DNA of 64,000 bases from an uncultured Clostridia bacterium (GTDB lineage Bacteria > Bacillota > Clostridia > Oscillospirales > Acutalibacteraceae). Shown one piece after another: positions 16,607 through 39,087 of the stretch (within the stretch, counting starts at the first letter, position 1; the number at the start of each line of letters is the position of its first letter). Where the stretch lies: contig CAMHAH010000001.1 of the NCBI GenBank assembly GCA_946183365.1, positions 1 through 64,000 of the forward strand, read 5' to 3'. A model generated the notes under the pieces. The model did no database searches and was not told the DNA's origin. It worked only from the letters and a program-made list of their open reading frames with translations. The translations under genes were made by a program, and so were the position numbers.

Positions 16607-17212
16607 TTACTTTTTCTTTTTAGAACGCTTTTTACCTGCGCTGTTAGATAAGTCGGCAGCTTTAATATCCATTTCTACACTGTCCTCGACCTTTTTATAT
16701 CCTATGATCAGAGAGATTATCTCATAACCGAACAAAATCATGATAATCAGAATAAAAATAATCAAACCTGTCGGAGAAAGGAAAAACGTATACGCCTTAT
16801 TCAGGAACGAAAGCTTAGTGATATACTTTCCTTTTACCTGAGAGAAAGATATTTCGGGATCAGGTATCGCTCCCTCGGCGACTCCCTGAGTAGACAGAAC
16901 AGTATCACCGCCGGAAGAATGCGGCGCAGTTATGACGCTGTGCGTTATCAGCATACCGTCATAATTTCCCTCATCACCGAGGTAAGTAATTATATCGCCG
17001 ACCTTTATTTCATCAGCATCGACTTTGTGAGAAAGAATGACATCCCCGACTTCAAGCACCGGAGACATACTGCCGGATGATATCCTGTAAACCTGATAAC
17101 CAAATAATTCAGGTACACCGCCCGAAGCTCGTGTTAAAAAAACCGCTATAACAATAATTATCAGCACAATCAATAAAACTGTGCTGATAATATTGATAAT
17201 CTTTTTGACCAA
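16607..17212 (-). CDS. SipW-type signal peptidase I (first)
   Basis: A 201-residue membrane signal peptidase of the SipW/ER type (Ser-His rather than Ser-Lys). N-terminal membrane helix (residues 5-27), the catalytic Ser in SSGSMSPVLEVGD (~45-57), GDIITY, and the His in MLITHSVI. A second membrane helix lies near 150-170, and the tail is Lys/Arg-rich (KKRSKKKK). SipW-type enzymes process TasA-like substrates whose signal ends in a TYAWF-type pattern, as carried by many proteins upstream in this locus. The start is TTG after gaggag with 9-nt spacing. It is the last gene of the locus, 13 nt after the 203-residue protein. Confidence 0.88.
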   Translation of the reverse strand: MVKKIINIISTVLLIVLIIIVIAVFLTRASGGVPELFGYQVYRISSGSMSPVLEVGDVILSHKVDADEIKVGDIITYLGDEGNYDGMLITHSVITAPHSSGGDTVLSTQGVAEGAIPDPEISFSQVKGKYITKLSFLNKAYTFFLSPTGLIIFILIIMILFGYEIISLIIGYKKVEDSVEMDIKAADLSNSAGKKRSKKKK

Positions 17213-17225
17213 ATCAAAATACTCC

Positions 17226-17837
17226 TCAATTATATAATAGAGTTATATTACTTTTTTTAAACTTGAATGAGTCGCCCTCACACTTCACAAAGAACTCGAC
17301 ATACAGCTTACCGGGATCGACATCAGTTGCTACGTATTTCTTGACATAAGCGTTTCGTACAAGGTTTACATTATTTGTTGAATCAGTATACTTATGACAC
17401 GCGCTGTTGGGCTTGACAATTCCTACGGTTGTGTTTGCGGGTACAGCCTTGTTGAAATACAACGAAATATTAGAGGCGTTAGCCGTATCCGCATTTAAAA
17501 CCTCTATTCTGAAGTAAAACAAGCCGTCCGGGTGCTCTGCGTTGTTAACATTAGACACAGTGACATCGGTATCAGTAATCTCATCACTCGGTGAATAATC
17601 GATCTCTCCGTAGTCGGGGTTTTCAGTAGTGGCCTCTGCTTGCGTGCGCATATTTCCTTGATAAAGCTTGAACGAACATTTCTCAGAACGAATTCTGTCA
17701 TCCTGAACAAAGCTCATACCAATTCCTGTCTCAACCTTAGGTGAGAACCATGAGTAAGAAGCGGTTATTATATTAATAGCAAGAATGAGAGCCGCTAATA
17801 TGGAAATAATGATTATTCCACGCTTATTCTTCATCAT
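17226..17837 (-). CDS. Small exported protein with SipW-type signal
   Basis: A 203-residue protein with one N-terminal membrane segment (GIIIISILAALILAINIIT) ending in ASYSWFSP, the style of SipW-dependent signals in TasA/CalY-like proteins. The mature part is beta-rich, with one Cys-containing strand near the end (YVEFFVKCEGDSF) that may be a weak relative of the W-x-EG-x-D motif in its neighbours. I use the ATG at 17837, placed 8 nt after aggagg; an upstream GTG overlaps that site. It lies between the giant surface protein and the first signal peptidase, a common position for a SipW substrate. Function unknown; fibre or matrix subunit is the best guess. Confidence 0.75.
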   Translation of the reverse strand: MMKNKRGIIIISILAALILAINIITASYSWFSPKVETGIGMSFVQDDRIRSEKCSFKLYQGNMRTQAEATTENPDYGEIDYSPSDEITDTDVTVSNVNNAEHPDGLFYFRIEVLNADTANASNISLYFNKAVPANTTVGIVKPNSACHKYTDSTNNVNLVRNAYVKKYVATDVDPGKLYVEFFVKCEGDSFKFKKSNITLLYN

Positions 17838-17860
17838 AATTCTCACCTCCTGATTTGATA

Positions 17861-20800
17861 CTAATTGTTGAACGCCGCAAATGAACCGCTGATCTCACTA
17901 TTATCTATAGTATCAGCAATAAATACCTGATTCGCAGCGATATCAATATTAGATGACGCCGAATAATAGTATACATGACGACCGTTATAGGTCTCATCGA
18001 CATTATCGACATCAGTCGAGAACTTGTCGGGATACATAAGGTAGAAACGAACCCTTGTAGCCGCTGCCGGAATCATAACTCTGTACAGATTACCGGAAAC
18101 AGGAACCATCGTAGACCATACACTGTTATCAGCTATAGTAAATCGAGCAACTAAGTTGTAAGCTGAAAGATCTACCCTATCTGTTTTGAAATACAATACA
18201 CTATCTCCGCTGTTGTTGCTAAGACCGAATACGGTCTTTTGCTCTCTCGAGTCTTCAGCGTTATCATCGCTGACTGTGGTCTTGAAATAATTGACTCCCT
18301 CAAAATTATAATCCGAATACGTGACATTTAATTTACTCAGAATAAAGCCGGTAATGTTTTCGATCGTGGTCTGTTCGTGAGTAGGAGTACCGGTTAATTC
18401 TGTATAGTCGTTATTGTTATGCAATGAATACGAAAAACTTACATTCGGGTTATCTATGCCGAAGCCCTTTGATATTACCTTAAGCGCAATAGTAGTTGCC
18501 GCCGATGATGTGCCTTTGAATGAATCGGGGTTAAAAAGTCTTTGAATCGCCTCAAAGCTGCGAAGCTCAAACATACTTACTTTAACCAGATAATATTTGA
18601 CACTACGAGTGTAATCAGAAGTAACCTTTACAAACGCGTAGTTTGGTTCGTTATCAGCAGGGGTCGGAGTGATTCTAAGATAACCGTTTCCGTATGAGAA
18701 ATCACAGGTGCAACCGTAAATCTTGTCGATCGTGAGAGAATTCACATTATCACAATCGTATCTGAATACTGCGGCGCTGTTCTTGCCGGCGATCTTTTGC
18801 TGAGCGTCATACTGTGTATAATCACCCGCGCTTCCGACTGTACGATAATCCGGATAATTAAGCGTCCAATCGTTACTCATGGGTCTCGGATTAGTTGTAG
18901 CAGTCGAGTCAATATCCGAAGAAAATGCGTTATTTGCAGTAGTCAGCGCCTTATACTCGGAATAAACCGGTGAGAGATAAGTGCGTGTTGCTCCTGTATC
19001 GGCCTCGGGATCATAACCGGTATTGAACATTACATAATTGTAGGTGTAGGGAATATCCGCATAATAGATGTTCTTCTGATCCTCATTAACATAGAGGAAT
19101 GTCATCTTAACATTATGCAGATCACGATAAGAATTCCCGCTGCCGTTATTCTCTGCGGCAACCTTGTAATCCGAATCAGAATTTGAATAATGTACATACA
19201 GAGTATGATCATAAGTTCCGCCGGATTGAGTCAGATTGCCCCAATTCTTGTTATCGGTAAAGAATATACGACGATAATCCACACCTTCAACCGCAGGCAT
19301 ATCCGCGCTCTCAAAGGCGTAGCTGATATTTGCTGAGAAGACTGTGTCGCCCTTTATATTGTAGTTGATAAAATCAACGCCGCTCGCGGGAAGCAGATTT
19401 GCTCCGCCGCTCTGAATAGCATTATTATTAGCGGTAATGGAATTCAAAACCATTACGGGATCTGTATGCGCAGAGCCGCCTGACCAGTGCTTATAAGTAC
19501 CGGATGTGTCCTTTACCGCATGGACCTGAAGCTCTGTATTGAATTCTACCGTATCGCCGTTGAAGTAGTATCTTAGATCTCCTTCGGCGGTGCTTCCTGT
19601 CGTTACATAAACAGAACCGTATTGAGGCTGCTGGATATTGATAACAGGATTAGCAGCGTATTTTACGTTTACGATAACATCATCATCTTTGATCCTCAAG
19701 CCTGTGATCGTATAGCTGCCATGATTATAAGCAGGCAACGTATCATGATCGTTGGATGTAACCGTAACCTCACTCACATAATAGCCTGTAGGAGGAGTGA
19801 TCTCAACCGTTTGCGGATCATTATAATCATAAGAATACTTTGTGTCGAACTGCTTCGTAACATCACTGATTTTCAGCGTACCGTCGTTGGTGCAGCCCGG
19901 AGGTTTGTCGGTGATTGTAACCGTCAAACCGCGGTTGCTGTTGATAACAGCTGCCAAAGTAACGGTACCGGTATGTGTAACATTATTTATTGAAGCGGTA
20001 ACCGCGTTCTTAGTAGGAGGCGTAGGACTCAGCGTCATCCCAGCGCTGGGGCTCGCGGTGATATTATCTACATAATACCCTGTTGACGGGGTGACCTTAT
20101 AGGTCAGGTTTGAGCCGTAATCGACATAATAAGAACCGGCTGAAGACGCTGTAACACTCTGTCCCTCTGAACGATAGACAAACTGATACTCAGAAATATT
20201 ACTGTCAGGCGTCAATGTGATCTGAGGCTTATGGGCAATATTATAGGTGACAACAATATTACCCGTAACCTTAGTTATTACAGACAAATCAGCAAAATCA
20301 CTATTCAAATAGGCGGTATTATCGTTGAGACTATATACCGTTGTACCGCCCATAGATACAGTTACAGAGCTGATATAATAATCAGACTTTGTAGCGGGTC
20401 TGTCGATTTTAAGATTGAGCTGAGTTCCTCCGAGAACTTGATTATTATCAATGACAGTGGTCTCATCCGAACCGCCGCTGCTGTCATGCTGTGTTAGGGT
20501 CTCGGTACCCTTAACACCGGTGTTATTAACTGTAACCGAATAATAAACTTCGTACTTATCTACATAAACACCGGTAATCTCTTTCTCACCGGTATAAGTA
20601 TCAGTACCATTCGTAGATGTAGAAACTACCTTGAATGAATAGGTCTGCTTAGCTTGAGGAGGCATCCATGATGTAGGATCATCAATAAGAGTATAGTTGC
20701 CGTTACCTATTTTATAATAGTACTTATAAGTATAAGCGCTGCTTACACCGCCCTCAGTTGACGCGGTGAATACAAAAGTAGACGCGTTTGTCGCTTCTTC

Positions 20801-23224
20801 AACACTTGTGTCCGGATTAGAATAGGTATAATTTAACGTGACAACCGGCTTCTGAGTGTAACGGGCATAATAGGTAACGTTTGAAGCTCCGAGTTTAAAA
20901 CTGTAGCTTTCAGTATCAGAGACTTTAGTGCTACCCTTATATATTCCGTCAAATTGATAATAAGCTTCGGGAACTATACTAAGATTGACAGTAGTGTCAT
21001 AATTCAAGGATTTTTTATAATTATTACTGCTGTTTACTGGTGTGTCATTGATCTTGAACGTAGGAGCGGGAGAAGGCTCAGTATAAGTATATGTACTGCT
21101 GCCGCTGCGATACTGTCCCCGGAAAGTCACATCATAAGAATTGATGGTCCACTGAGCGTACAGATTAAACGTAGCGTCTTCTTTATCCCAAGTCAGGTTA
21201 CTTGTACCATCAGCTTTATAATACATATCAGCATTATTGCCTCCGGTACGCGTAGTATAGAAGCCTCTCAGAGTGTAGCCGGTACGCGAAGGAACGTGTG
21301 AAGCAATGGAAGGCATAGCCGCATCATATGTAGCCGTTACTGTAGTAATAAGAGTATTATCTGAGTCATTGTAGTTTTGATAAATATTTACAGTAGAAGT
21401 TTTGGGAGTCCACTTAGCATATAGTGTAGGATTATTGTTTGTTTTATTCCACTTTTTATTGTTATACGCGGTACCGTTTGCGTTATAATACTGATTACCC
21501 GATCCGTTCTGTCCGTCGTAATAACCGGCAAAATTATAACCTGTGCGAGTGGGTAAAGAGGTTATTTTCGGCATAACAGCATCATAAGTTGCCGAAACTG
21601 TAGAAGTCGCAGGAGTTCCGGACCCGTTATTGAGAGTTACGGTATAGCTTTTTGCTGTCCACTTAGCGTAAACGGTAGTATCCTGAGTTACTGCTGTGCT
21701 GAAATCATACGCAGTAGTACAATCACTATCAGTATACCAACCGCCGAATGTATAACCGGTCGCAGTAGGAGCAGCAGGTTCAGTAGCTGTCTGACCATAA
21801 GTTACAACCGCGGAGGTATTTGTGCCGCCGTGACCGTTCTTGTTAAAAGTAATTATGTTGGGATAATAAATCCTGATGTTTTTAGCGGAAGGATTAAACT
21901 CAAAAATATAATCACCCGCAACATCGGCAACTACGCCTATATTTCCCTTGCCGGCCGCGGTATTCATAGTCCACGGTCCGCTGTTTGAGCGGGTCATATC
22001 ATAACCGGTGCCATCATGACCGTACCATGTTGTATTCTTTTGTGTGAAAACCTTAAAGCCATCATTACCGCTATTAGAGTAAGTCTGCTCTGCCAGAGAG
22101 TAAGTAAGTCTATACTTGCCGTCAGATTGCTTTGTCATTTTTCTGTCAGAAACCATACGACCGTTAGTGTCGCTGCCCCAATATGACTCGCCCGTGCCGA
22201 AGCCTAAAAGATAATAGGCGTCATCGCCGGTAACGGTAATAGTTTTTGTAGCAGTCGCGGTCTTTGTAATACCGGTGAATTTCTTCGGGTTATAAGTTAC
22301 GGTTGCCGTAACTTTATAAGTACCCGCAGAAGAAGCGGTGAACTCACCTGAAGAAGAAACAAAGCCGGCAGAATTAGGATTGGTAGATACAGTGTAGGTA
22401 GTGCTCTTTATCTCATTGTAAGTCGCGTTAGAAGTAAGAGAGGGGGTCAGCTGAACGCTTGTTCCGGTCGTTGTGGATGAAGGGCCTGACAAAGACGCGG
22501 TAGAAGTCTCTTGATAATTTTCCTGGAACTGACCGCCCCAACCATCGTTGCTATGCGAGAAGAACACAGCGTTATTAGTCACTCCGTTAAGGGTCACAGA
22601 GTATCCGCCATTTGGATCATACCATGAATCATTACCCTTAAACTGAGCTTTATTGTTATCATCATATACCTGAACACGATACATATAATAGGTTCTGCCA
22701 TCATGATCATATGTATCCAAATAGGTACCTGACTTAACTCCTCCGGAAGTACCGCCCCAGAAGTTAAAACCGTACTTCGACGAGTCTTTATAATGTTCGT
22801 AATTATAACTGATACCGACATAAATGTATCTTAGCGCTGCCGCGCCGGTAACGGCAAGATCAGAATCAGCGCCTGTCAGCGCGATATCGGAATCTTTTTC
22901 AGCCAAAGAGCTGTTGTCAGAAGCCTCGATACTATCTTCAGAAGCATTATCAGCCTGAGCCGGCTCGATATCCGCGGCAGAACCGCTTTCACCGTTGCTG
23001 ACAGCCTTTGACCTGACGCTCATTAAGAGTGGACCATCGTCAGGCAGGATATTTTGAGAGGAAATATATGAAAAGGAGATGGTGACAACGCCAAAAGCAA
23101 GCAACATAATCAGCACAGCAATTAAAACATGGCGCGACAACATGAGCCTGAGCTGAGGCATAGCCTTAGCGCGAGCTTTGTTGTAACCCTTGGATTCATT
23201 TTTCCTTTGGTTATTACGGCCCAA
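17861..23224 (-). CDS. Giant surface protein with InlB-type repeats
   Basis: About 1787 residues. A basic cytoplasmic N terminus (~30 residues) precedes a membrane segment (LIAVLIMLLAFGVVTISFSY), then an acidic Ser/Asp/Ala linker. Next come two aromatic-rich beta modules (~130-235 and ~335-455, the latter YYLLGFGTGESYW...DYIFEFNP, resembling starch-binding modules of the SusE/F or CBM type) with an Ig-like (BIG_2-like) domain between. Three to four InlB/Listeria-Bacteroides repeats follow (~457-695, each ending in LYAKWT or VYAKWT after GYTFGGWYTD-type cores), then several Ig-like modules to the C terminus. There is no LPxTG sorting signal; anchoring would be by the N-terminal segment unless SipW cleaves it. 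The TTG at 23224 follows aaaggag, while the upstream ATG (23260) lacks a ribosome site. It has its own promoter. Likely an adhesin or matrix protein. Confidence 0.85.
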   Translation of the reverse strand: MGRNNQRKNESKGYNKARAKAMPQLRLMLSRHVLIAVLIMLLAFGVVTISFSYISSQNILPDDGPLLMSVRSKAVSNGESGSAADIEPAQADNASEDSIEASDNSSLAEKDSDIALTGADSDLAVTGAAALRYIYVGISYNYEHYKDSSKYGFNFWGGTSGGVKSGTYLDTYDHDGRTYYMYRVQVYDDNNKAQFKGNDSWYDPNGGYSVTLNGVTNNAVFFSHSNDGWGGQFQENYQETSTASLSGPSSTTTGTSVQLTPSLTSNATYNEIKSTTYTVSTNPNSAGFVSSSGEFTASSAGTYKVTATVTYNPKKFTGITKTATATKTITVTGDDAYYLLGFGTGESYWGSDTNGRMVSDRKMTKQSDGKYRLTYSLAEQTYSNSGNDGFKVFTQKNTTWYGHDGTGYDMTRSNSGPWTMNTAAGKGNIGVVADVAGDYIFEFNPSAKNIRIYYPNIITFNKNGHGGTNTSAVVTYGQTATEPAAPTATGYTFGGWYTDSDCTTAYDFSTAVTQDTTVYAKWTAKSYTVTLNNGSGTPATSTVSATYDAVMPKITSLPTRTGYNFAGYYDGQNGSGNQYYNANGTAYNNKKWNKTNNNPTLYAKWTPKTSTVNIYQNYNDSDNTLITTVTATYDAAMPSIASHVPSRTGYTLRGFYTTRTGGNNADMYYKADGTSNLTWDKEDATFNLYAQWTINSYDVTFRGQYRSGSSTYTYTEPSPAPTFKINDTPVNSSNNYKKSLNYDTTVNLSIVPEAYYQFDGIYKGSTKVSDTESYSFKLGASNVTYYARYTQKPVVTLNYTYSNPDTSVEEATNASTFVFTASTEGGVSSAYTYKYYYKIGNGNYTLIDDPTSWMPPQAKQTYSFKVVSTSTNGTDTYTGEKEITGVYVDKYEVYYSVTVNNTGVKGTETLTQHDSSGGSDETTVIDNNQVLGGTQLNLKIDRPATKSDYYISSVTVSMGGTTVYSLNDNTAYLNSDFADLSVITKVTGNIVVTYNIAHKPQITLTPDSNISEYQFVYRSEGQSVTASSAGSYYVDYGSNLTYKVTPSTGYYVDNITASPSAGMTLSPTPPTKNAVTASINNVTHTGTVTLAAVINSNRGLTVTITDKPPGCTNDGTLKISDVTKQFDTKYSYDYNDPQTVEITPPTGYYVSEVTVTSNDHDTLPAYNHGSYTITGLRIKDDDVIVNVKYAANPVINIQQPQYGSVYVTTGSTAEGDLRYYFNGDTVEFNTELQVHAVKDTSGTYKHWSGGSAHTDPVMVLNSITANNNAIQSGGANLLPASGVDFINYNIKGDTVFSANISYAFESADMPAVEGVDYRRIFFTDNKNWGNLTQSGGTYDHTLYVHYSNSDSDYKVAAENNGSGNSYRDLHNVKMTFLYVNEDQKNIYYADIPYTYNYVMFNTGYDPEADTGATRTYLSPVYSEYKALTTANNAFSSDIDSTATTNPRPMSNDWTLNYPDYRTVGSAGDYTQYDAQQKIAGKNSAAVFRYDCDNVNSLTIDKIYGCTCDFSYGNGYLRITPTPADNEPNYAFVKVTSDYTRSVKYYLVKVSMFELRSFEAIQRLFNPDSFKGTSSAATTIALKVISKGFGIDNPNVSFSYSLHNNNDYTELTGTPTHEQTTIENITGFILSKLNVTYSDYNFEGVNYFKTTVSDDNAEDSREQKTVFGLSNNSGDSVLYFKTDRVDLSAYNLVARFTIADNSVWSTMVPVSGNLYRVMIPAAATRVRFYLMYPDKFSTDVDNVDETYNGRHVYYYSASSNIDIAANQVFIADTIDNSEISGSFAAFNN

Positions 23225-23361
23225 CTTTAATTCTCCTTTCGAATTATATCTGCGTCTCATTTAAATATTGAGAATAAACCGAATATTAATATCCGATATA
23301 ATGAACACTGAACAGCGCGACATAATCCATCAATACGGTCATATTTGACCCTTATTAACAA

Positions 23362-23390
23362 ATTATAGCACAAATAATACTGAATATCAA
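23362..23390 (-). promoter_or_regulatory. Promoter of the giant surface protein
   Basis: Minus strand TTGATA, 17 nt, TATAAT, ~140 nt before the TTG start. It splits the locus into two transcription units. Confidence 0.65.
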
Positions 23391-23441
23391 CAACATATAG
23401 ATCTGATAAGCGAGATTTTTTGTATCAACTTATCAAAGATA

Positions 23442-25919: not shown

Positions 25920-25957
25920 TGTGACACCACCTTTCTGTGCTGTTTTAAAATAATTGA

Positions 25958-28954: not shown

Positions 28955-28970
28955 TATTATCTCCTAAAAG

Positions 28971-30086
28971 TTAACCTGCACTTAAATCAAGTTGAATATA
29001 AAACTTACCGCCGGCAATAGCTCGACGAGCTTCATCATCTGTACCCTCGATCCAAATATTAACACGGGCTTTACCGTAATACTCGGTCTTTCCGGTGCTC
29101 TCATTTAAATGAGGAGTACTTAAAGTTGCAAATGGTTTTGACGATGCTTTAGCGGGATCTGTTACGGTACCGGAATCATATACATACGATTTTGTTCCGC
29201 CAACACCGATATCCCAATATCTGTGAGTATATGTATCAATAAAACTGTGTGAATCATAAGTGACCTTGTGATCCTCGTCAGCTGTCAAATTCGGCACATC
29301 TGTAAGTAGAGTCATGGGATCAGTCTTTGCCGGACCCTGGTACAAGCATACATCCGGTCTGGGAAGCCAAACTAAGGACGGCACAGTATTCAAATGAGAA
29401 TCATCAGCTATGTCGGAATAGATATCAGAATAAGTTAAGTTTTCGGGGTTCTGATAACCGACAAACGCTACGCGAACCGCTCCGACAACCGCGTCGGGAG
29501 AAAACGCACCGTACTTCGCCGCTTGCGCAGAGGTATAATCAGTCGTTAAACTGCCGTCTCCTGGCTCAGTCTCGCAATCAGCCAAAACATAGGCTTCATC
29601 ACCAAGATAGACTCGACAGTTCTGAGCTTCGGATCTGAAGATCAGATCAAACGAAAGATACTCTTTATTAGGTGTAATCTCCTGATAATTCGACGCTGTT
29701 TCGTTGATTATTTTTTTGCCTGAAACACTGTCGTTTTGTAAAATAGGGATATAAAGCTTTCGTCCGTCACCGGTAACATCCTTAGGGTTGTAATCATACA
29801 AAAGGCTGTAATCCTTGTTCTCGCCGTTTTCATTTACAGTAACGTGCTCAAAATCCATATTGGAAGCGAATTCAGACACCTTATACTCGCCCTGTGTTTC
29901 TCTTGTTGAAAAACCAACGGCAACATCAAACTCAACACCTTGTTTGGTAGAAGCGTTGATCGTGCTTGCGTAAACAGGTGGAGAATTCATCGTAAACCAT
30001 GAATATGTAAAAGCAAAAATAAGAACAAGCAAAGAGAGCAATACCATGATACCCTTCGCCATCAATGAATGCCGGGTGATTTTCAT
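28971..30086 (-). CDS. Exported TasA-like family protein (371 aa)
   Basis: 371 residues with a membrane segment (11-28) ending in FTYSWFTMNS, a SipW-type signal. The mature part is a compact version of the locus module: DGRKLYIPILQ, EYLSFDLIFRSEAQN, GAVRVAFVGYQN, and at the very C terminus VNIWIEGTDDEARRA followed by a final beta strand (FYIQLDLSAG). It is the cleanest single-module member, so a fibre subunit is plausible. Start after aaaggagcgat. It is co-transcribed with the 798-residue coiled-coil gene upstream (52-nt gap) and the 998-residue gene downstream. Confidence 0.8.
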   Translation of the reverse strand: MKITRHSLMAKGIMVLLSLLVLIFAFTYSWFTMNSPPVYASTINASTKQGVEFDVAVGFSTRETQGEYKVSEFASNMDFEHVTVNENGENKDYSLLYDYNPKDVTGDGRKLYIPILQNDSVSGKKIINETASNYQEITPNKEYLSFDLIFRSEAQNCRVYLGDEAYVLADCETEPGDGSLTTDYTSAQAAKYGAFSPDAVVGAVRVAFVGYQNPENLTYSDIYSDIADDSHLNTVPSLVWLPRPDVCLYQGPAKTDPMTLLTDVPNLTADEDHKVTYDSHSFIDTYTHRYWDIGVGGTKSYVYDSGTVTDPAKASSKPFATLSTPHLNESTGKTEYYGKARVNIWIEGTDDEARRAIAGGKFYIQLDLSAG

Positions 30087-30138
30087 AATATCGCTCCTTT
30101 CTTTTTGTTAATCAATAAAAACAATCAATTATTATATA

Positions 30139-32535
30139 TTACTTATAATCTTTAGCCTCGGGAAGATCAAGAAGAGCCTGTGGCTTATCATCAACAAGCA
30201 CTTTCGCCTTCTTAACAAACTTACGAGCCTTCTTGGTAGCCTTAGCGAGTTTAGTATTATAATCCTTCTGGATAGCTTTCTTCTCAGCGTTCAGACGAAC
30301 TGTATACTTCTGGTCATCAGTGAACTTGCAAGCGGCAACAGTCTGAGCCTCGAGAGCCTCGATCTTTGCTTCATATTCAGACGCCTGAGCCTTAAGCTTT
30401 GCCTCATACTCATCTCTGACAGCCTGAATACCGGCGTCCTTGGCAACATTAGCGGCATAGACCTGATCCTTAAGATCGGCGATCTCTTTCTCTCGGTTAG
30501 AAGTGGACGCTACGAGATTAGCGATAGAATTATTGAGTCTGAGGTTCTCAGTCTCGATATCCGCGACCTTATCACGGGCGTTTCTGATCTCGGACTGAGC
30601 CTTGGCTTCAATAGCGTCAACACCGTCTATACGCTCGGTAAGAGCAGACTTTTCATCACGAAGAGTAGAGATTATCGCGTCTTTAGCTGAGATAGTGTTC
30701 AGGTGAACTCTGATCTGATGCTGCAGCTCGCGGTTCTCGTCATTACCCTCGTTGATAGTATTCTGCAAATCATTCAACTCACGCCGGAAGTTAGAATACT
30801 TATCCTTGAGGTCATTATGCTCGTTCTGCAGATTAGTGAGCTTACCGTCGAGCTTAGCTATCGTATTATTATTGCTCTCGATAGTGGCGGTCTTTGCGGC
30901 TATATCATCAGCCTGTTCACTTATGGTATGCTCCTGATCAGAGATCGTATTCTTTAATGTTGAATTCTCGGCTGTGAGACTGCCGACCGTATTAGTCAGG
31001 GCGGCAACATTGGAGTTCAAGCTTGTGATCTCCTTCGCCTGATCGGCTATCGTATTCTCCTGCTGTTTGATGAGCTCAGCCTGTTCAGCGATCTTAGCTT
31101 TTAGCTGCTCGATCTCGGCATTGAGCTTATCAATAGTAGCATTGAGCTCAGCGATGTTAGCTTCGAGAGCCGCAATAGTAGCGAGGTGAGCGGCGATCTG
31201 AGCCTCGAGTTCTGCGATCTTTGCCTCAAGCTCGGCAATCTTAGCTTCGAGCTCTGCGATACGCGCCTTGAGCTGTTCGACCTCTTTCTCGAGATCCATG
31301 ATACGGATCTGAGCCTTGCGGAGCTCTTCGCGAACCTCTTCGAGCTCTTTCTTAAGAGTAACTATTGTGGCCTCAAGCTCTTTGATCTTGATATCGCGAA
31401 TACGAATCTGTTCTTTAGCCTGTTCGAGCTCAGACGTCAACTTAGAGATGATTACCTCACGCTCACGAACCTCTTTGAGTCTGAGCGCCATCTCTTCACG
31501 ACGAACCTCGTAAATTTTATCTTCGATATATCGCGCCATTTCTTCCTCGGGCTTGTTTGCCTCAGCGGCACGGCGCGCGTTTTCAGCATCATACTCCGCT
31601 TTCAGTTTTTCGCGAAGAGCTGTGTTGGTGTTCATAGTGGCGACGAAATGCTGGAAAGCCATTACGTCATACATATCCTTTTGAACATCCTCGGGCATCT
31701 GGCCCTCAAAAACGTTCTTCTCAAGGACATATCCGGTCTTGCGGTATGCTTCTATAAACACCCACAGATCATAGCATTGCTTGAACGCGGGATCCTGTTT
31801 TATACAATTTGTTTTATTTATGGGAGATTTTACCTTGATACAACCGTTGAGCGACTTGATCAGGTCTGTATTACAAAAATCATCAAGCGTCATACGAATA
31901 CGCTCTATACGCTCATAGTCTGTCAAAGCGGAGAGATCCTCGTCACGGTCGATTTTATCACGCTCATGCTTCTCCGCGTGGTGATCGAAAACGAAGCCCA
32001 TCTTTTCATGACCGATCGCGAGCTCTCGCTCCATGTGCATCTTACTGGATGAATCATTCGGAGCGTCCTGCAGCGCACGGAAACGAGCTTCAACAAACAA
32101 AATACAGTTATGTATCAGCGTATGGAGAAAACGGTTTTCATAGGTCGCGAAGCTGTCTTCACGGTGAGTATTGAGAAGTCTCTCGGGAATTACGCTTCCG
32201 TCGTCCTCTATAGCCATAATAAGGTTAGCGTGTTGAGTAAGGTGCTGAACCGCGTCCTTGCCGACCTGCTTTACCTTATCTATACGGTCTACCTCTTTAT
32301 ACTCTTCAATGAACTTTCTCTGTTCATCGATGGCCTTTTCGATATAGGGCAGCTTACCCTCGATCATCTCGACCCATTCCATATCGATAACACGGTTATA
32401 CGCGTTACCGGAAAGTTCATCATTGCCCTTGTCGGCGTCAGCCATTGCTGATGTCAGATAATCATGCGCGTAATCGCCGTCGAGAGTTTCTTTCATTTCG
32501 GCATAAGCTCTGTAATATCTGCTATAGTCAATCAT
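30139..32535 (-). CDS. Long coiled-coil protein, DUF2357/McrC-side-like N terminus
   Basis: 798 residues, no signal or membrane segment, so cytoplasmic. Residues 1-300 are a helical domain with TYENRFLHTLIHNCILFVEA (~133) and DPAFKQCYDLWVFI (~248), features I associate with DUF2357 proteins that partner McrB-like ATPases. No PD-D/ExK nuclease motif is visible. Residues ~305-745 are one long coiled coil with heptad runs such as KIAELEAKIAELEAKIAELE; a basic tail follows (~745-798, KKARKFVKKAKVL). Neighbour of the McrB-like AAA+ gene, which fits a two-component pair. I place the start at the ATG 8 nt after aaaaggag rather than the GTG overlapping it. The family link is tentative. Confidence 0.7.
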   Translation of the reverse strand: MIDYSRYYRAYAEMKETLDGDYAHDYLTSAMADADKGNDELSGNAYNRVIDMEWVEMIEGKLPYIEKAIDEQRKFIEEYKEVDRIDKVKQVGKDAVQHLTQHANLIMAIEDDGSVIPERLLNTHREDSFATYENRFLHTLIHNCILFVEARFRALQDAPNDSSSKMHMERELAIGHEKMGFVFDHHAEKHERDKIDRDEDLSALTDYERIERIRMTLDDFCNTDLIKSLNGCIKVKSPINKTNCIKQDPAFKQCYDLWVFIEAYRKTGYVLEKNVFEGQMPEDVQKDMYDVMAFQHFVATMNTNTALREKLKAEYDAENARRAAEANKPEEEMARYIEDKIYEVRREEMALRLKEVREREVIISKLTSELEQAKEQIRIRDIKIKELEATIVTLKKELEEVREELRKAQIRIMDLEKEVEQLKARIAELEAKIAELEAKIAELEAQIAAHLATIAALEANIAELNATIDKLNAEIEQLKAKIAEQAELIKQQENTIADQAKEITSLNSNVAALTNTVGSLTAENSTLKNTISDQEHTISEQADDIAAKTATIESNNNTIAKLDGKLTNLQNEHNDLKDKYSNFRRELNDLQNTINEGNDENRELQHQIRVHLNTISAKDAIISTLRDEKSALTERIDGVDAIEAKAQSEIRNARDKVADIETENLRLNNSIANLVASTSNREKEIADLKDQVYAANVAKDAGIQAVRDEYEAKLKAQASEYEAKIEALEAQTVAACKFTDDQKYTVRLNAEKKAIQKDYNTKLAKATKKARKFVKKAKVLVDDKPQALLDLPEAKDYK

Positions 32536-32592
32536 CGGGCTCACTCCTTTTCAGGGTTGGTTATAAGTTGATTTATACTGAGAGATTGCTTT

Positions 32593-32639
32593 CAGCAACC
32601 CTCCGGCACTTCGTGCCACCTCCCTTGGGAAAGGGAGGC
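32593..32639. repeat. Small double-hairpin repeat inside the operon
   Basis: Two adjacent hairpins, ccggcacttcgtgcc and cctcccttgggaaagggagg, preceded by cagcaaccct. This arrangement is typical of short dispersed repeats in gut Ruminococcaceae genomes. It sits in the 116-nt gap between the AAA+ and coiled-coil genes and could act as a processing or partial termination site. Confidence 0.6.
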
Positions 32640-32651
32640 TGATTAATGTTA

Positions 32652-34199
32652 TCAGGTCATCTTCTGGAGCATGCGGACATACTCTTTACACTCGTTCATG
32701 TTCTCGCGTCCGAAAAGCTGATCAAGCTGCTGAACCAAACCGTCGATCTCATCACGGATATAAGAAATATTCAGCGCCTCAAACTTACGGAATACTTTCT
32801 TGCACAGCGCGTAATCTATACCGTCTACCTCTGTACCGCCGCAGCCAACGAAAGCGGGAACGAAGGAGTTGATCTGCTTCATAACACGGTTACCGAAAGC
32901 AACACGGAAGTGCTCGATTACGTAGTCGTCAAGGATCTCGATCTTCTTGAGGTTCTCCTCACTGATCGGATTAGCCTTGACAGCGTCTTCAAGAAGCTTG
33001 GTGAAATGCTTATAGTTGATATGACAGGGCGGTGTGTCGGGGGCGTCAAAGGGCTTACCCTTTGTATTGATATCGATAGGCATCGCACGGTCATAAACCT
33101 TATCGGTGATAGCGAATGTAGAGTCATCGTTGTTCGCGGTGCCGACATACCAGATGTTATCGGGAATGGTCAGCTTACCGTGATCAAGGTGCTTAGGATC
33201 ATCGGGCCAGGGAGCGGCGACGATCTCTACGATCCACTCGTCGTGAGCAGGCATTTCAAGGATAGAGAGCATCTCAGCGAAGTAGTACTCAACACGGGCG
33301 ATGTTCATCTCATCGAGGATAACTACATATACGTTCTCGTTGTATGAAGCCTCATACAGAGCGCGGAGAAGCTCAGTCTCATTATATCTCTTTGTGAATT
33401 CGTTGTAGTAGCCGAAGAGCTCGGTACGGTCACGCCATGAAGGCTGAACAGACGCGATAACTGCGGGGTTGCATACATACTTACCGAAAGCGTAAGGCAG
33501 TGAGGTTTTACCTGTACCGGAAATACCTTGCAGGATGGTCAGACGACCGGAAGCAAAGCCTGCTACGAAGCAGCGGAGCAGCTTGATCTCATACCAATAA
33601 TGCATTCTTGAGCAAGCAAAATTGCGGAAGTTGGTAACAAACTCGGGAAGAGTAACGTCCCAGTCGTAGGGCTCGGGCTGATAATCCGCCCACTCTTCGT
33701 CGATAGTGACAAGCTTGTTGAAACGGCCTGTTGACACTTCTTCCTCTTCCTCTCCTGCGTTGAGAGCCTTCAGCTCCTCTCCGGTGAGCTCCGCGATCTC
33801 GTTCGGATTGAGGCCGATCTGAGAAACCTTCATAGAGAGGATCTTATCCTTCTCAAGGTTAAGACGCATTACCTCTTTATTAAGAGCGTTGACTTCATTG
33901 ACAAGGTCATTAGTGTCCTTAGCCTTTTTCTTGAACTTTATGAGCTTCAGGATACCCTTGACAATAAAGAATATGATAAGTCCGAGAACGGCAGCCATAA
34001 GGAGCATAGCGATAATAGCGATTACCCATGCGACGCCCTTGCCGAGCTGTCCCTGACCTGTGAAGTTCTCGATGATCTCAACGTACTTCGGGAAATTGAA
34101 GGCGCCGACGATACCGGTGAATATACCGGCTATCGCGCTCCATAACGAGCCGAAGAACTGCTTAAGGAACTCAAATAAGAATTTAAATATAGTATCCAT
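32652..34199 (-). CDS. Membrane-anchored McrB-like AAA+ ATPase
   Basis: 515 residues. An N-terminal amphipathic region and a membrane helix (~56-82, VAWVIAIIAMLLMAAVLGLI) are followed by a basic stretch, a short coiled coil (~92-120) and an acidic linker. The AAA+ domain has Walker A GISGTGKT (225-232), the McrB-typical VQPSWRDRTELFGYYN, Walker B VVILDEMNIARVEYYF (~292-307) and sensor-1 GTANNDDST (~353). These match the McrB subfamily, normally the GTPase/ATPase motor of restriction systems. Here there is no DNA-binding domain and no nuclease partner, and the protein is tethered to the membrane among export genes. A motor for assembly or export is the likely role (inference). Start after aaggag. 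Confidence 0.85.
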   Translation of the reverse strand: MDTIFKFLFEFLKQFFGSLWSAIAGIFTGIVGAFNFPKYVEIIENFTGQGQLGKGVAWVIAIIAMLLMAAVLGLIIFFIVKGILKLIKFKKKAKDTNDLVNEVNALNKEVMRLNLEKDKILSMKVSQIGLNPNEIAELTGEELKALNAGEEEEEVSTGRFNKLVTIDEEWADYQPEPYDWDVTLPEFVTNFRNFACSRMHYWYEIKLLRCFVAGFASGRLTILQGISGTGKTSLPYAFGKYVCNPAVIASVQPSWRDRTELFGYYNEFTKRYNETELLRALYEASYNENVYVVILDEMNIARVEYYFAEMLSILEMPAHDEWIVEIVAAPWPDDPKHLDHGKLTIPDNIWYVGTANNDDSTFAITDKVYDRAMPIDINTKGKPFDAPDTPPCHINYKHFTKLLEDAVKANPISEENLKKIEILDDYVIEHFRVAFGNRVMKQINSFVPAFVGCGGTEVDGIDYALCKKVFRKFEALNISYIRDEIDGLVQQLDQLFGRENMNECKEYVRMLQKMT

Positions 34200-34270
34200 A
34201 TGCTCTACTCCTTGTGCGAATTTTATTCTGAAAAGGATTACATCCTGTATTTATTATTTGATCAAGTATT

Positions 34271-35209
34271 TTAAATGTCTTCTTCTTCGATATTAAAGAA
34301 CCACATCAGTTTTACATAACCGCCGCGGATAGCGTCGATACACTCGGGATCTTCGCCCTCGATCCACATTACTATCGTGTACTTATCGGTCTGGCCGGGC
34401 TCTAAGCCCTCGTATGTAGTGTTAAATACCGTCTCGTTATCGATAAAGGGCTGAATAACGATCTCTTCATCGGTGTGGTCAACGAGCTCCTTGTTCTGGA
34501 TCTGCTCCTCGGGAGGAGTAAGGCTCTCCGGCGGGGTGTAGTTTGAGGGGACGACCTTCTTAAAGATCTTCTCAAAATCACTGCCGTCGCGGTTTGATTT
34601 AGCGAACACCTCGGGCTCGCCGTTCTTATAAACCATTACTCGGCAGGCTTCGTCAGCGTCTTTAGCAGCCCTGACAGACTGCAGCTGGCTCTGATAATTG
34701 AGTATCTCCTTACCGTTGTTGGTAAGATAGAAGGTATACGCGAGATAGTTCCTGCCGTTATGCGAGCCGTCCCACTCAAGGTCGAGTGTGGCGGGCAGCC
34801 AGTCATATGTGATATTGGTTACTTCGTTGACCATGTTGGCTGAGAGCTTGAAGGTCGCTCCGCTGTCTTCTCCGTCTGACAAGGACGCCGGGTTCTTCTC
34901 GGATATCGAGATACCGTGCTTAGCGGCTCCGCTGTCAACCGTGATAACCAGATCGCCGACTGTTGTCAGCAGCCATGAGATTATCCATACCAGCAACAAA
35001 ACAAGCACCAATACTGTGAGGGCTATGCCCGCACGGCGTTTCCAGACGACCTCTTTTGCGAGGTCCTTTGCGTCACGTCTGGCGTGATATCGCTGGAATA
35101 TGCCCTCTTTATGGCGCTGCTTTTGAACTTCCTTATCGCCCTGATTTTCAAGTTTTTCGAGCTGTTCGGGAGAGAAAGGCTCTTCAGTTTTTTTAGTTTT
35201 CCTGCTCAA
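34271..35209 (-). CDS. Membrane-anchored TasA-like family protein (312 aa)
   Basis: 312 residues. A long charged cytoplasmic N terminus (~60 residues) precedes a membrane helix (~62-85, IALTVLVLVLLLVWIISWLL) without the AWF-type ending, so it may stay anchored rather than be cleaved. The extracytoplasmic part follows the locus pattern: LAYTFYLTNNGKE, ACRVMVYKNGE, a Pro-rich linker, then YTIVMWIEGEDPECIDAI and a final strand (VKLMWFFNI). It could be the membrane base or platform for the exported paralogs. The start is TTG, 9 nt after aaggag. Next to the AAA+ gene. Confidence 0.78.
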   Translation of the reverse strand: MSRKTKKTEEPFSPEQLEKLENQGDKEVQKQRHKEGIFQRYHARRDAKDLAKEVVWKRRAGIALTVLVLVLLLVWIISWLLTTVGDLVITVDSGAAKHGISISEKNPASLSDGEDSGATFKLSANMVNEVTNITYDWLPATLDLEWDGSHNGRNYLAYTFYLTNNGKEILNYQSQLQSVRAAKDADEACRVMVYKNGEPEVFAKSNRDGSDFEKIFKKVVPSNYTPPESLTPPEEQIQNKELVDHTDEEIVIQPFIDNETVFNTTYEGLEPGQTDKYTIVMWIEGEDPECIDAIRGGYVKLMWFFNIEEEDI

Positions 35210-35288
35210 TTGTAACAGCTCCTTTTCATATGTAATACCCGATTAATATTTCTGTGACAAAGCAATCGTCCGTTCAATTCCTGTCAAA

Positions 35289-36152
35289 TCACGCTTGCTC
35301 TGTATTATCTTCTGTAGTGTCCTTATTTTCTTCTATACTTTTCTGCTGCCTTTGGAACTCAAGGAATTGCTTGAACTGTTCCATCTGCTCGGGGCTCATA
35401 TTCGAGATCCCTTCTGCATTCTGCTTACCGGCGGTAGCCTCGGCGACTGCCGCGTTCACAGCGGCCTGACGATCTTCTTCCGCTTTTGCTTTGCGGTAAT
35501 TTGTAGCATTGAGTACAACGCGGATAAGCTCATACATGAAGAAGATGATCATCGGCAGAAGCACGACTAAAAAGAAGCCCTGCTGGGTCCTGAGATAATC
35601 CAGAGCGGTGCCCACGCCCTTAATGATGATACCCTCATAATCAGACGAGTAATACAAGGAGCCGATATCGCCGGCTCTCAGATAATCCTCGACATCCTGT
35701 TGATCGGGGAGGGTGTCCATTTTTCTGTTATCGCCCCACGTCTGGTAGCGCAGATCTCCGTTTTTGTCTTTCGCGACATCTACGATTCTATGGACGATCA
35801 ACATTGTCGAATTATCTGTATCCGTCTTAGCATACGTAACGATATCTCCGACTTCATACTTTTCGCCGATATCAAAGTCAGTCGCTTTGGCAATCATCAG
35901 GTCGCCCTTCTCAAATTCCTTGCCGCCGTAACCGTCGGGTGATCCGCCCTTCATAGAGTCAGATTGAATCGACTGGATCGTGTAACCGAAAATCGTGGAA
36001 ATACCGCTGGATTGTGAGGTCAGCGCCATAACAGCGATCAGTAACGATGTAATCAGAACGATCACGATAAGAATATTAATAATGACATTTAATACCGTTT
36101 TAAGGACTTTCAGCCCTTTTTTGTTCTGTGTTTTTGTTTCATTCTCTTGCAT
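35289..36152 (-). CDS. SipW-type signal peptidase I (second)
   Basis: A 287-residue signal peptidase of the SipW/ER type. N-terminal membrane helix (~18-44), catalytic Ser region IQSIQSDSMKGG (~60), GDIVTYAKT, His in MLIVHRIVDV, and TWGDNR. A second membrane helix lies near 185-205, then a long cytoplasmic tail rich in Gln/Glu (to 287) that the first enzyme lacks. The start at 36152 follows ggagag; the longer frame upstream is non-coding by context. Two such enzymes at opposite ends of one locus suggest different substrate sets. Cleaves presumably the AWF/SWF-type precursors. Confidence 0.87.
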   Translation of the reverse strand: MQENETKTQNKKGLKVLKTVLNVIINILIVIVLITSLLIAVMALTSQSSGISTIFGYTIQSIQSDSMKGGSPDGYGGKEFEKGDLMIAKATDFDIGEKYEVGDIVTYAKTDTDNSTMLIVHRIVDVAKDKNGDLRYQTWGDNRKMDTLPDQQDVEDYLRAGDIGSLYYSSDYEGIIIKGVGTALDYLRTQQGFFLVVLLPMIIFFMYELIRVVLNATNYRKAKAEEDRQAAVNAAVAEATAGKQNAEGISNMSPEQMEQFKQFLEFQRQQKSIEENKDTTEDNTEQA

Positions 36153-36723
36153 ATAATCTCTCCAAAATAGCTTTAATCTCTGCAGATAATCTGAGGTATT
36201 CACACAGATTAGAGCTATGCTCTGTATTCGCGAAGAAAGGAATAATAGGGGCGTGCGCGGGCGAAACTGCCGTTCCGCCCCTACACTCCATTTTCGCATA
36301 GTTCAAAACGTTTTGACCTCTGCTCAGGGAGCGAGAGGCAGTTGGACTGACTACTTAGGAGAAATAAGAGTGAAGAAATATGAAATAAGAAATAACTACT
36401 CAAGAATAGTTCTTATCTCTTATTTCTCAGTTCTTATTTAACAACTCCCGCCTCCTTGTCAGACCGGAGGAGGCAAGTTAACGACTCCGAATAAGCCTAT
36501 CGAACGACCGACGGCCGTCGCCGCAGGGCGACCGACCGCTCATACAGAGCCGGATCTTATCAGAAACAAGTATAAAACCCTCACGGGAATTATCCTATGC
36601 GGCGCGGGCGTGTGTTTGCCACCCGCGCCGCCGTTTATGATAATTTAAAAGAGAAATCTCTTATGTATGTCCCGCAATTTTAAACAAGTAAAGGACATAA
36701 TTGTCAATCCGTCAAAAAGAGTA
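36153..36723. other. 570-nt non-coding region inside the locus
   Basis: No supported gene. It holds a hairpin from gaaataaga-type inverted repeats (about 36380-36427), a gcctcc/ggaggc hairpin near 36450-36475, and a strong GC-rich hairpin ggcgcgggcg/cacccgcgcc near 36600-36630, just past the stop of the 294-residue gene. On the minus strand the last could slow or partly end transcription after that gene, giving it a higher mRNA level than downstream genes. Confidence 0.5.
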
Positions 36724-37608
36724 TCATTCGGCCTTTTCTACTTTAAAGGTAAACGAAATTTCGGAACCAGCTTTGCTGTCGACGCAATCAAAGTCAGTAC
36801 CCTCAATCCATACGTAAACATCATAGGCTACGATAGCGGCTTCGCCTTGACCGGGATCAAACTCGCCGATCGTATGTGCAGCAGAAAGGCTGTTATGAAG
36901 CGTTGACGGAGTAGATGTCACTTCAGCAGCAGTTCCCTGATTATATTTAGTTTCTGCAGCAGTCCACATAGGCTGAGCAGTATCATCTTGATCGGCAGCA
37001 TTCCACTTGGTAGCAGAACGATCATTAAGTGCGCCATCGTACCAGATAACGGGTTTAGTATCCAATTTCTGAGTGATAGTAGTATCATTGGCAGCAATCG
37101 GTACAAGAGCTAAACGAACCATTTTTCCGGTTTTTTCGTCAGACGTACAAGCAGGAGTGATTTTAATAGTCTGCTTTGTAGTGGACTTGATGTAGAGCTT
37201 GCTGGTCTTAACTTCAGATACAGTGCTCTTAGATGCACCCTCATAATCAGCGGTTGCATAACCAGAGTTGGAATCAGCAGCTTTGACCTTATACCAATCA
37301 GTGAAGTTTTTAGTAGTGACAGGAATAAGGTCAGTCCTATCACCAAGAGTCGCTAATTTTCCGCTGGTAGTATTAAAGCTGTCAGCAGAAAAGTGAAGGT
37401 CATGAGTATACGGAGAAAGCGTACTACCGGCATCTTCGGACAAGGTGATGTCAGAGCTCTTGGTTGTTTTAGCGGTAATCGTCTTAGCCGATGCTTCATT
37501 TTGAGTGTTGAACCATGCGAATGTTGCGGAACCGAGAGCTACGAGAGCTACAAGGAGCATCGCAACGGAAGAGAGTAACGCTCTCTTTCTGAATTTTGTG
37601 TTTGTCAT
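36724..37608 (-). CDS. Exported TasA-like fibre-type protein (294 aa)
   Basis: 294 residues. A classic N-terminal signal (residues 1-32) ends in SATFAWFNTQN, followed by a Thr/Lys/Ser-rich mature part. The locus signatures are present: KMVRLALVPIAAND, and YDVYVWIEGTDFDCVDS near the C terminus, then a closing strand (ISFTFKVEKAE). Strong ribosome site (aaggaggattctct), a leader hairpin at 37667, and an apparent attenuating hairpin after the stop all suggest high expression. Of the set, this is the best candidate for a major fibre subunit, as TasA is for Bacillus biofilm. Likely cleaved by one of the two SipW-type peptidases. Confidence 0.8.
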   Translation of the reverse strand: MTNTKFRKRALLSSVAMLLVALVALGSATFAWFNTQNEASAKTITAKTTKSSDITLSEDAGSTLSPYTHDLHFSADSFNTTSGKLATLGDRTDLIPVTTKNFTDWYKVKAADSNSGYATADYEGASKSTVSEVKTSKLYIKSTTKQTIKITPACTSDEKTGKMVRLALVPIAANDTTITQKLDTKPVIWYDGALNDRSATKWNAADQDDTAQPMWTAAETKYNQGTAAEVTSTPSTLHNSLSAAHTIGEFDPGQGEAAIVAYDVYVWIEGTDFDCVDSKAGSEISFTFKVEKAE

Positions 37609-37666
37609 AGAGAATCCTCCTTAAAATATAGTTGTCCCAAACACCAGGACATAATTACTATTTAAT

Positions 37667-37683
37667 CAAGCGTTCTGCGCTTG
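37667..37683. promoter_or_regulatory. Leader hairpin before the 294-residue gene
   Basis: CAAGCG/CGCTTG with a 5-nt loop, ~60 nt before the start codon in the 5' leader. It could stabilise the mRNA. The rest of 37609-37862 holds simple gaag-type repeats and a gggcgggc/gcccgc hairpin, no gene. Confidence 0.4.
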
Positions 37684-37862
37684 TTTAAACCGGATAGTTT
37701 AGGTGAAGGATGAAAGGTGAAGAGTAAAGGGTTAAGGGCGGGCTCTGCCCGCACCCAAAATACTAAATAGATCTCTTCACAGTATTCAGTGATGATACCA
37801 GCATTCTTTTTGTCGAATCCAACACCTGTTTTAATTTATCAAACTTTTCACCGCCCGTAGGC

Positions 37863-38678
37863 TCATTCAACCGACATATTGTTCTCATCCGTACCGCCGA
37901 AGAGCATCTCAAACGATACGTTTGAATCCTGAACGTTGTTGATACACTCGGGATCCTCACCCTCTGCCCAGATCCTGACTGTGATCTGCTTGGGGGTAAG
38001 CTTATCGACATGGAAAATACGGGTATCGTTAACGAACGAAGTACCGACATCAAAGGTCGACTGACCCGCTACAGCGGAACCCTTGTTGGGCTCCCAGATA
38101 GCGGCGGTGCCGTTATCCTCAAACGAAACGCGTACAGCTCTTACGACGTCAGCCTTAACGCCTGTTTCGGTGGTCGTGCAGGCGGTAGTGGCGTCATTGC
38201 CCTCAACCTGTACCGTCTGACCCGAAAGGTGAACCCACATATCCGCGGTAGCGATAAACCATACCTTGAACTCCATGAACGAGGTATCGTTAGCGTTACG
38301 CGAAGCGCCGGACTGGCTCGCGAAGGAGATACCGTTGGACGAGGTGACAGGGTCGAGTATCTGGTCGGCGATCACCGGAGCGTTGACAGACCTCAAATAT
38401 GTATTGATCATATCGTTGGTGAGAACCTTTTTGTAAAGTGAAACATCACTGCCGTGGTTCTCGATATCCAGATACAACTCGGGAGCTGTAGATATCTTAA
38501 GATTGATATCATTGACAGCCGCAAAGTTGCTCAGAGTAAACCAAGCCAAGGTCGCGGTAATCAGCACCAGCATCGCGATAATGCTGAGCATAAAGGTAAA
38601 CTTGCGCTTGATGCGAGCCTGTGCCTTTTTGAGTTTATTTAATTCCTGAATAAGCTCTTGCCTTGTCTTTTCTTCCAT
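37863..38678 (-). CDS. Exported TasA-like family protein (271 aa)
   Basis: 271 residues. A charged coiled N terminus (EEKTRQELIQELNKLKKAQA) precedes a membrane segment (~28-46) ending in TATLAWFTLSN, SipW-type. The mature part carries FMEFKVWFIATADMWVHLSG, VVRAVRVSFEDNG and VRIWAEGEDPECINNV with a final strand, the same signatures as the paralogs. I take the ATG at 38678, with ggtgat upstream; the longer frame overlaps the promoter. First gene of the locus, behind a TTGATT-N17-TATAAT promoter with a ~100-nt leader. Confidence 0.8.
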   Translation of the reverse strand: MEEKTRQELIQELNKLKKAQARIKRKFTFMLSIIAMLVLITATLAWFTLSNFAAVNDINLKISTAPELYLDIENHGSDVSLYKKVLTNDMINTYLRSVNAPVIADQILDPVTSSNGISFASQSGASRNANDTSFMEFKVWFIATADMWVHLSGQTVQVEGNDATTACTTTETGVKADVVRAVRVSFEDNGTAAIWEPNKGSAVAGQSTFDVGTSFVNDTRIFHVDKLTPKQITVRIWAEGEDPECINNVQDSNVSFEMLFGGTDENNMSVE

Positions 38679-39030: not shown

Positions 39031-39087
39031 AATCCCTCTTATATCGTCATTAACAGAGAGGCAATCTTCATGAAAGGAAGTGAATAT

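Follow-up and report, generated by a model that had tools for sequence, protein, structure and literature searches.

We analysed a 64,000-bp stretch of a contig from an uncultured Clostridia bacterium (CAMHAH010000001.1, positions 1 to 64,000), further referred to as the window. It contains a locus of twelve open reading frames (ORFs), all on the minus strand between positions 16607 and 38678 and in the order in which a sequence-only reading of the window had first described them. The locus is an operon of the CoCoPALM type, and we propose with moderate confidence that it encodes a membrane-anchored, nuclease-free McrBC-like machine serving a surface fibre, the proteins of which are exported via the general secretion (Sec) pathway and processed by SipW signal peptidases. 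The system had been taken for an undescribed one; its class was in fact named in 2024 (PMC11090510) and left uncharacterised. New here are the beta-sandwich shared by two exported families, the conservation of the machine as opposed to the divergence of the exported proteins, and the linkage of relatives' operons with EAL genes and with riboswitches for cyclic di-guanosine monophosphate (c-di-GMP), a signal for attachment to surfaces. Genomes and loci of relatives are denoted below by G and L numbers.

The best NCBIfam match of the AAA+ protein of the locus is the McrB model NF008457 (E = 4e-6, far below the cut-off). The sequence search of PDB with its family returned McrB chains only at E <= 0.1 (6hz4, 6ut6 and 7vsr, E from 3e-6 to 7e-6). 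Along with the ILDEMN and NNDD motifs and the N-terminal membrane segments, these matches confirm the McrB-type motif set on a membrane-anchored protein that had been noticed at first reading. The membrane segments and the short coiled coil were read in the sequence, and no FtsB/DivIC match was found in Pfam at E <= 0.1. Of 93 membrane-clade AAA ORFs, fragments included, 90 carry Walker A, 88 carry LDE(M/L)N and 91 carry NxD(D/E), the last as NNDD in 89 ORFs. NNDD may be read either as NxD followed by D or literally as NxxD. Since 20 of the 23 lower-scoring soluble relatives carry NxDE in the form N(M/L/V/Q)DE, which is compatible with NxD only, the AAA+ protein is placed, by motif and tree kinship, in the NxD branch of Bell et al.

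A pair of McrB-like ATPases had been suggested, with the coiled-coil protein left without assigned kin. The locus encodes one McrB-like AAA only, and its partner is this coiled-coil protein, which matches the McrC-like Pfam family DUF2357 with 31.5 bits over the whole length and 34.8 bits over residues 1–330 (cut-off 23.3). When its family (18 rows) was compared by hhalign with eight soluble nuclease-bearing McrC-like relatives, the match had E = 6.3e-10 over 86 columns, and several proteins of both groups have the YENRF motif in common. The PDDEXK_7 domain is clear in all eight soluble relatives (L105, L116 and six more), and PDDEXK is absent from both parts of the window protein scanned for it, residues 1–330 and the last 153. 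No nuclease or HEPN domain is listed for the operon proteins (for the DUF2357 protein, among its best 25 matches and in the scan of its end regions). Judging by these comparisons, the coiled-coil protein is a McrC-like partner without recognisable nuclease. Thus, of the nuclease-free McrB-like assembly motor proposed earlier, the first half stands, and the machine may act as a motor, a gate or a scaffold. Other forms of the partner were seen in some loci. In L058, from a metagenome-assembled genome labelled Tenericutes, it has only 370 amino acids (aa) and no coiled coil, and lies beside SipW and AAA genes; in L052, L053 and L055 it ends in a C-terminal domain that differs from that of the window and is apparently globular (for L053, no Pfam match to this domain was found).

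Both signal peptidases of the locus were recognised by profiles, and their Ser and His residues, read initially as an S-H pair, are kept in all 76 aligned SipW-like sequences. SipW-1 scores 83.7 bits against TIGR02228 (cut-off 51.85), SipW-2 scores 51.3 bits, just below the cut-off, and 52.1 with its neighbours; these are the only two TIGR02228 matches in the window genome. The Bacillus SipW profile NF046067 also matches both (E = 6e-25 and 3e-18, respectively), far below its own cut-off. SipW-type signals with A/S-W-F ends were read in the 271-, 294-, 371-, 998- and 203-aa proteins, and variant ends, FSWI and FSYI, in the 825- and 1787-aa proteins, as described before; in the 312-aa protein no SipW-type cleavage motif was seen. 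In L149, L150 and L151, additional SipW genes upstream of AAA adjoin genes for single-span proteins of ~200 aa, which is a more elaborate version of the system.

Of the exported set, for which structure prediction had been suggested earlier as a check, two families were modelled. The two models share a beta-sandwich, and the 294- and 312-aa families match each other in profile–profile comparison (E = 1.1e-7). For both models the first-ranking Foldseek match was 7ueg, the archaeal bundling pilin, with weak E-values (2.3e-3 and 0.068), and the best solved-structure matches include donor-strand fibre subunits (the archaeal bundling pilin and TasA), also weakly. At the sequence level, the 312-aa family matched no solved structure. 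No TasA/camelysin match was found in Pfam at E <= 0.1 for the operon proteins, the profiles TIGR04087 (E = 0.061) and TIGR04088 (E = 0.28) both remained below the cut-off, and the TapA profile matched the 271-aa protein at E = 0.061, far below its cut-off. Five operon proteins carry a WxEGxD motif. The machine genes are strongly conserved, whereas the exported proteins diverge; in the alignment of the 294-aa family the signal region is near-invariant and the remainder hypervariable, and this protein is probably the main fibre subunit. The exported proteins of the surface fibre or adhesin system envisaged at first look like fibre subunits by weak fold evidence, and the fibre itself would be formed from them.

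The AAA gene was found in 46 of 98 genomes, in 28 of 247 genomes of the order and in 13 of 293 genomes of the class (the window genome included in each count, and some of the matches in the order and class being a twin variant described below). These occurrences and the synteny of the neighbourhood speak against a chance arrangement. In close relatives the order is mostly 271, 294, SipW-2 (preceded or followed by the 312-aa gene), AAA, DUF2357, 371, 998, 825, often ended by the 203-aa gene and SipW-1. Many of the loci from other families and orders have a core made up of 312, 294, SipW, AAA, DUF2357 and SipW. Linkage was counted by a script that required a SipW gene no more than 15 kb away on the strand of AAA, in loci with at least 3 kb of flank on both sides. 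SipW was linked in 44/44 near, 12/12 order and 8/8 class loci, and in 0/4 twin-AAA loci and 0/1 other. All membrane-AAA loci were pooled because the labels "SipW-type", "twin" and "odd" were given after viewing the neighbourhoods, and the tree was made later. This gives 64/69 loci versus 0/16 for the soluble relatives, the five loci without SipW being side branches. These counts are of dependent cases, as the loci are related by descent, whereas p values for such linkage take the cases as independent; the near-relative synteny set contains several contigs twice (e.g. L047 and G016). The co-occurrence anticipated by the sequence-only reading was thus observed.

The twin variant is a sister arrangement of membrane AAA, DUF2357 and a second membrane AAA, followed by a ~190–220-aa membrane protein and a ~1300-aa protein (L140, L141, L153 and L156; partially L142, with one AAA only, and L143, interrupted by the contig end). 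The ~1300-aa protein has a transglutaminase-like core in L140, and SipW was not found near the twin loci. In the midpoint-rooted FastTree tree of 63 AAA domains, 41 SipW-linked and twin-AAA members form one clade (support 0.97); the twin group (eight domains, one clade) has support 0.96, and the SipW-linked group alone only 0.11. Phylum-wide, 52 of 398 genomes were matched, two strongly (G000 and G102) and 50 weakly (E from 1e-22 to 1e-36). The weak matches were rejected as members of the system, since none of 20 loci taken from these 50 (16 fully flanked) had SipW on the AAA strand. DUF2357 was beside AAA in 9 of these 20 loci with the first profiles and in 2 with the later one.

The relatives' operons also show a link to c-di-GMP that had been missed at first reading. 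Genome searches for EAL domains and riboswitches covered 19 of the 26 AAA-bearing genomes of the order outside the genus; G128, G173, G183, G201 and G263 (side branches without SipW), G165 and G086 were omitted. Distances to the AAA gene were counted from the listed coordinates. The 19 genomes yielded 45 EAL matches, of which 18, in 14 genomes, are no more than about 6 kb away from AAA, compared to 0.49 expected within 10 kb. The five exceptions are G174, G096, G280, where the contig with AAA is only 4.6 kb long, and G193 and G152, neither of which has an EAL match; the side-branch loci had no EAL gene nearby either (0/6 and 0/2). When flanking genes were scanned, 16 of 20 proteins matched EAL; we preferred the genome-wide count because L138 and L139 score only 15–16 bits in an EAL profile built here. 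The NVS and DDFG motifs have functional roles in EAL domains. In the alignment, all six stand-alone EAL proteins encoded at operon heads lost the Asn of NVS and the first Asp of DDFG, whereas both are kept in four downstream GGDEF-EAL proteins. On account of these losses, the operon-head proteins are likelier to be receptors than enzymes.

Riboswitches were scanned in 28 SipW-type loci outside the genus: 15 (L125–L139), four (G062, G078, G079, G096) and nine (L145–L152, L155). In seven of them, c-di-GMP-I riboswitches scoring over the gathering score on the operon strand directly precede operon genes. They lie 7–118 nt before the EAL gene in L129, L130, L132 and L136 (two in L136), overlap its upstream-most start in L133, precede a pilin-like gene by 40 and 589 nt in L134, and the 312-aa gene by 76 nt in L152, where two EAL genes are found further upstream. 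In G078 and G062 the riboswitches are further upstream. In total, 30 c-di-GMP-I riboswitches were found in the 19 genomes, ten of them, in seven genomes, within 10 kb upstream of AAA on its strand (0.08 expected). The Rfam search revealed no riboswitch in the window or its near relatives L045, L047, L074 and L080, and no c-di-GMP-I riboswitch occurred in the five genomes of the genus searched. Therefore c-di-GMP control is a trait of some members of the wider family; at the locus of the window the link was sought and is absent. In soluble control loci (8 of 20 scanned) there was a single c-di-GMP riboswitch (L105, 347–431), 7.4 kb before AAA on the same strand and separated from it by opposite-strand ORFs. 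In Clostridioides difficile, c-di-GMP riboswitches act on putative colonisation factors (PMC6200980). Rfam also matched Gut-1 RNAs in L125, L130 and L134; in the latter they are at 8908–8988 (+), 9081–9153 (−) and 11185–11264 (−), two of them between the AAA and DUF2357 genes.

The gene content, homologies, linkage and riboswitch matches observed here suggest the following mechanism. Given the signals and the linkage, pilin-like proteins would pass through Sec and be cleaved by the two dedicated SipWs. Next, their beta-sandwich domains would be linked to one another, probably through the donor-strand exchange known from TasA, to which the weak fold matches point. The 312-aa protein, apparently lacking a cleavable signal, may serve as a base or starter by keeping its pilin-like domain tethered at the membrane. 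Inside the cell, a membrane AAA+ ring with the DUF2357/coiled-coil partner would form a complex driven by nucleoside triphosphates (NTPs), which could gate, time or cluster both export and assembly where the 312-aa protein marks the site. In some other genera the operon may be under c-di-GMP control via riboswitches, perhaps also via the degenerate operon-head EAL receptor; the genus of the window lacks this layer. A bolder version, which we put forward only tentatively and regard as doubtful, is that a McrBC machine of the restriction type lost its nuclease, moved to the membrane and now drives, with NTP and gated by c-di-GMP, the assembly or export of a donor-strand surface fibre in anaerobic Firmicutes. 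This would be a novel Gram-positive fibre machine, unlike sortase pili, type IV pili or self-assembling TasA. Our confidence in the surface-fibre reading is slightly lowered by the restriction of the c-di-GMP riboswitch to a minority of the relatives' loci (7/28).

Several other explanations were considered. The locus might be an anti-phage defence system, in which surface proteins sense the phage and the McrBC-like pair triggers an intracellular response as its restriction relatives do. Indeed, the AAA/DUF2357 pair is of the McrBC family, among PADLOC models the AAA+ protein matches best PDC-M26A, which stands for a candidate defence system (E = 5.5e-34), and hypervariability, seen in the exported proteins, is a frequent trait of phage receptors. 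We consider defence improbable, given that the operon proteins have no listed nuclease or HEPN domain and that c-di-GMP switches precede the operon in some relatives. Moreover, radC and uvrB adjoin the locus, and the identical flank follows SipW-1 in G016 and G040, unlike in a mobile island; since it recurs, the locus looks like a settled chromosomal operon. A defence system proper was rejected, as no effector was found and the flank is settled.

It is likewise rather unlikely, though less so than defence, that AAA/DUF2357 is a regulator or scaffold, acting as a cytoskeleton of coiled coils or organising Sec and SipW in space, with fibre assembly proceeding free of NTP, as proposed for TasA. 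The long coiled coil of the partner would suit such a role, and TasA fibres are joined by the N-terminal donor strand, TapA being the probable starter (PMC9674648). Against it stands the conservation of Walker A and LDE(M/L)N in the membrane clade; therefore NTP turnover is probably needed for something. Finally, the exported proteins could be separate adhesins or wall proteins that form no fibre and only have the SipW route in common. The long further parts of the 998-, 825- and 1787-aa proteins (the last with List_Bact repeats) and the weakness of the fold matches agree with this possibility, whereas the domain relationship of the 294- and 312-aa families, the WxEGxD motif in five proteins and the small subunit that many loci from other families and orders have next to SipW do not. 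We regard it as unlikely. The preferred reading thus remains the McrBC-like machine serving a fibre. To our knowledge, no energy-using machine is known for SipW-processed fibres, and one would be added if this reading is true. CoCoPALMs would then obtain a concrete role, suggested by the lack of a nuclease, by the exported subunits and by the linkage to c-di-GMP riboswitches and EAL genes: parts of a restriction system reused for building or controlling a surface fibre in common gut bacteria. A McrBC-like protein alone would be no mark of defence in genome annotation.

The features of the locus are listed in the table. Eight of the eleven intergenic gaps have lengths of 13–107 nt, and three equal 217, 254 and 571 nt (with the inner start of SipW-2). 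The GC content, 0.39–0.48 in 2-kb steps, makes the locus AT-richer than most of the window, and the AAA gene has a single match within its own genome. Promoter and terminator scans yielded about as much as those of shuffled sequences. Directly upstream of the operon, a divergent gene (39070–40764, plus strand) encodes a BspA-type leucine-rich repeat protein (Pfam LRR_5, E = 1.8e-24), possibly a surface protein.

Table. Genes and one motif of the CoCoPALM-type locus in the window, in operon order.
Feature	Position	Strand	Remarks
271-aa exported protein	37863..38678	-	SipW-type signal TATLAWF; C-terminal WAEGEDPEC motif; syntenic orthologues
294-aa exported protein	36724..37608	-	Alignment, model and fold matches; WIEGTDFDC motif
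SipW-2 signal peptidase	35289..36299	-	287 aa counted from the inner ATG at 36152
312-aa membrane-anchored protein	34271..35209	-	Long helix 14-82, then beta-sandwich; WIEGEDPEC motif
McrB-like AAA+ protein, 515 aa	32652..34199	-	N-terminal membrane segments, short coiled coil, GISGTGKTS, ILDEMN, NNDD
NNDD GTPase-signature/sensor motif of the AAA+ protein	33123..33134	-	Residues 356-359
McrC-like protein	30139..32544	-	N-terminal DUF2357, then long coiled coil (~residues 300-700)
371-aa exported protein	28971..30086	-	SipW-type signal FTYSWF; WIEGTD motif; syntenic orthologues
998-aa exported protein	25958..28954	-	SipW-type signal VTYAWF; internal WLEGTD, then long C-terminal extension
825-aa exported protein (839 from the outer start)	23442..25961	-	Variant signal STFSWI; degenerate motif WFEFND
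1787-aa giant exported protein (1799)	17861..23260	-	Two List_Bact repeat stretches; variant signal ISFSYI; Pfam Flg_new, E 2.6e-20
203-aa exported protein (206)	17226..17846	-	SipW-type signal ASYSWF; syntenic orthologues
SipW-1 signal peptidase	16607..17212	-	Profile matches; alignment of Ser/His

CoCoPALM was named as a class in one paragraph (Bell et al. 2024, eLife, PMC11090510) and described there as having a NxD-branch McrB-like GTPase with a fused membrane and coiled-coil segment resembling FtsB, a McrC homologue usually with a coiled coil, and linked signal peptidases. In the window we find a McrB-like protein of the NxD branch, which carries a membrane segment at its N-terminus and a coiled coil, as well as the coiled coil in the McrC homologue and the signal peptidases. 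The terms SipW, TasA, biofilm, fiber, c-di-GMP, riboswitch, EAL domain and donor strand do not occur in the main text of that paper, and searches of an open-licence library gave no other work on this system, judging by titles and the beginnings of abstracts. CoCoNuTs of types I–III also combine NxD-branch McrB and McrC with coiled coils, sometimes without an active McrC nuclease. According to the same paper, such CoCoNuTs always have HEPN or another nuclease nearby, whereas no PD-(D/E)xK, HEPN or other nuclease is listed for the operon in the window. McrBC restriction systems with a DUF2357 and PDDEXK_7 partner are similar in the AAA+ partner and in DUF2357 with YENRF. They differ in that the AAA protein of the window is membrane-anchored and of the SipW-linked class (64/69 vs 0/16), and the nuclease domain of the McrC partner that marks type IV McrBC, a system cleaving modified DNA in a GTP-dependent manner, was not found in the window protein.

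On the side of the fibre, a close comparison is with TapA-SipW-TasA of B. subtilis, which resembles the locus in the SipW-type signals with a linked, dedicated SipW, in the weakly matched pilin-like beta-sandwich and in a possible membrane-proximal starter. The window differs from it in having two SipWs, a McrBC-like machine and many paralogues, and no family profile matches over its cut-off. The TasA/CalY filament system of Bacillus cereus includes a chaperone-like protein (PMC13082335). In archaeal threads, subunits are joined by donor-strand complementation (PMC9715654); the bundling pilin (7ueg) and the thread pilin Saci_0406 (7pnb) form donor-strand fibres of this kind in archaea, and the former is comparable to the window proteins by the weak fold matches given above, with no sequence relation shown.
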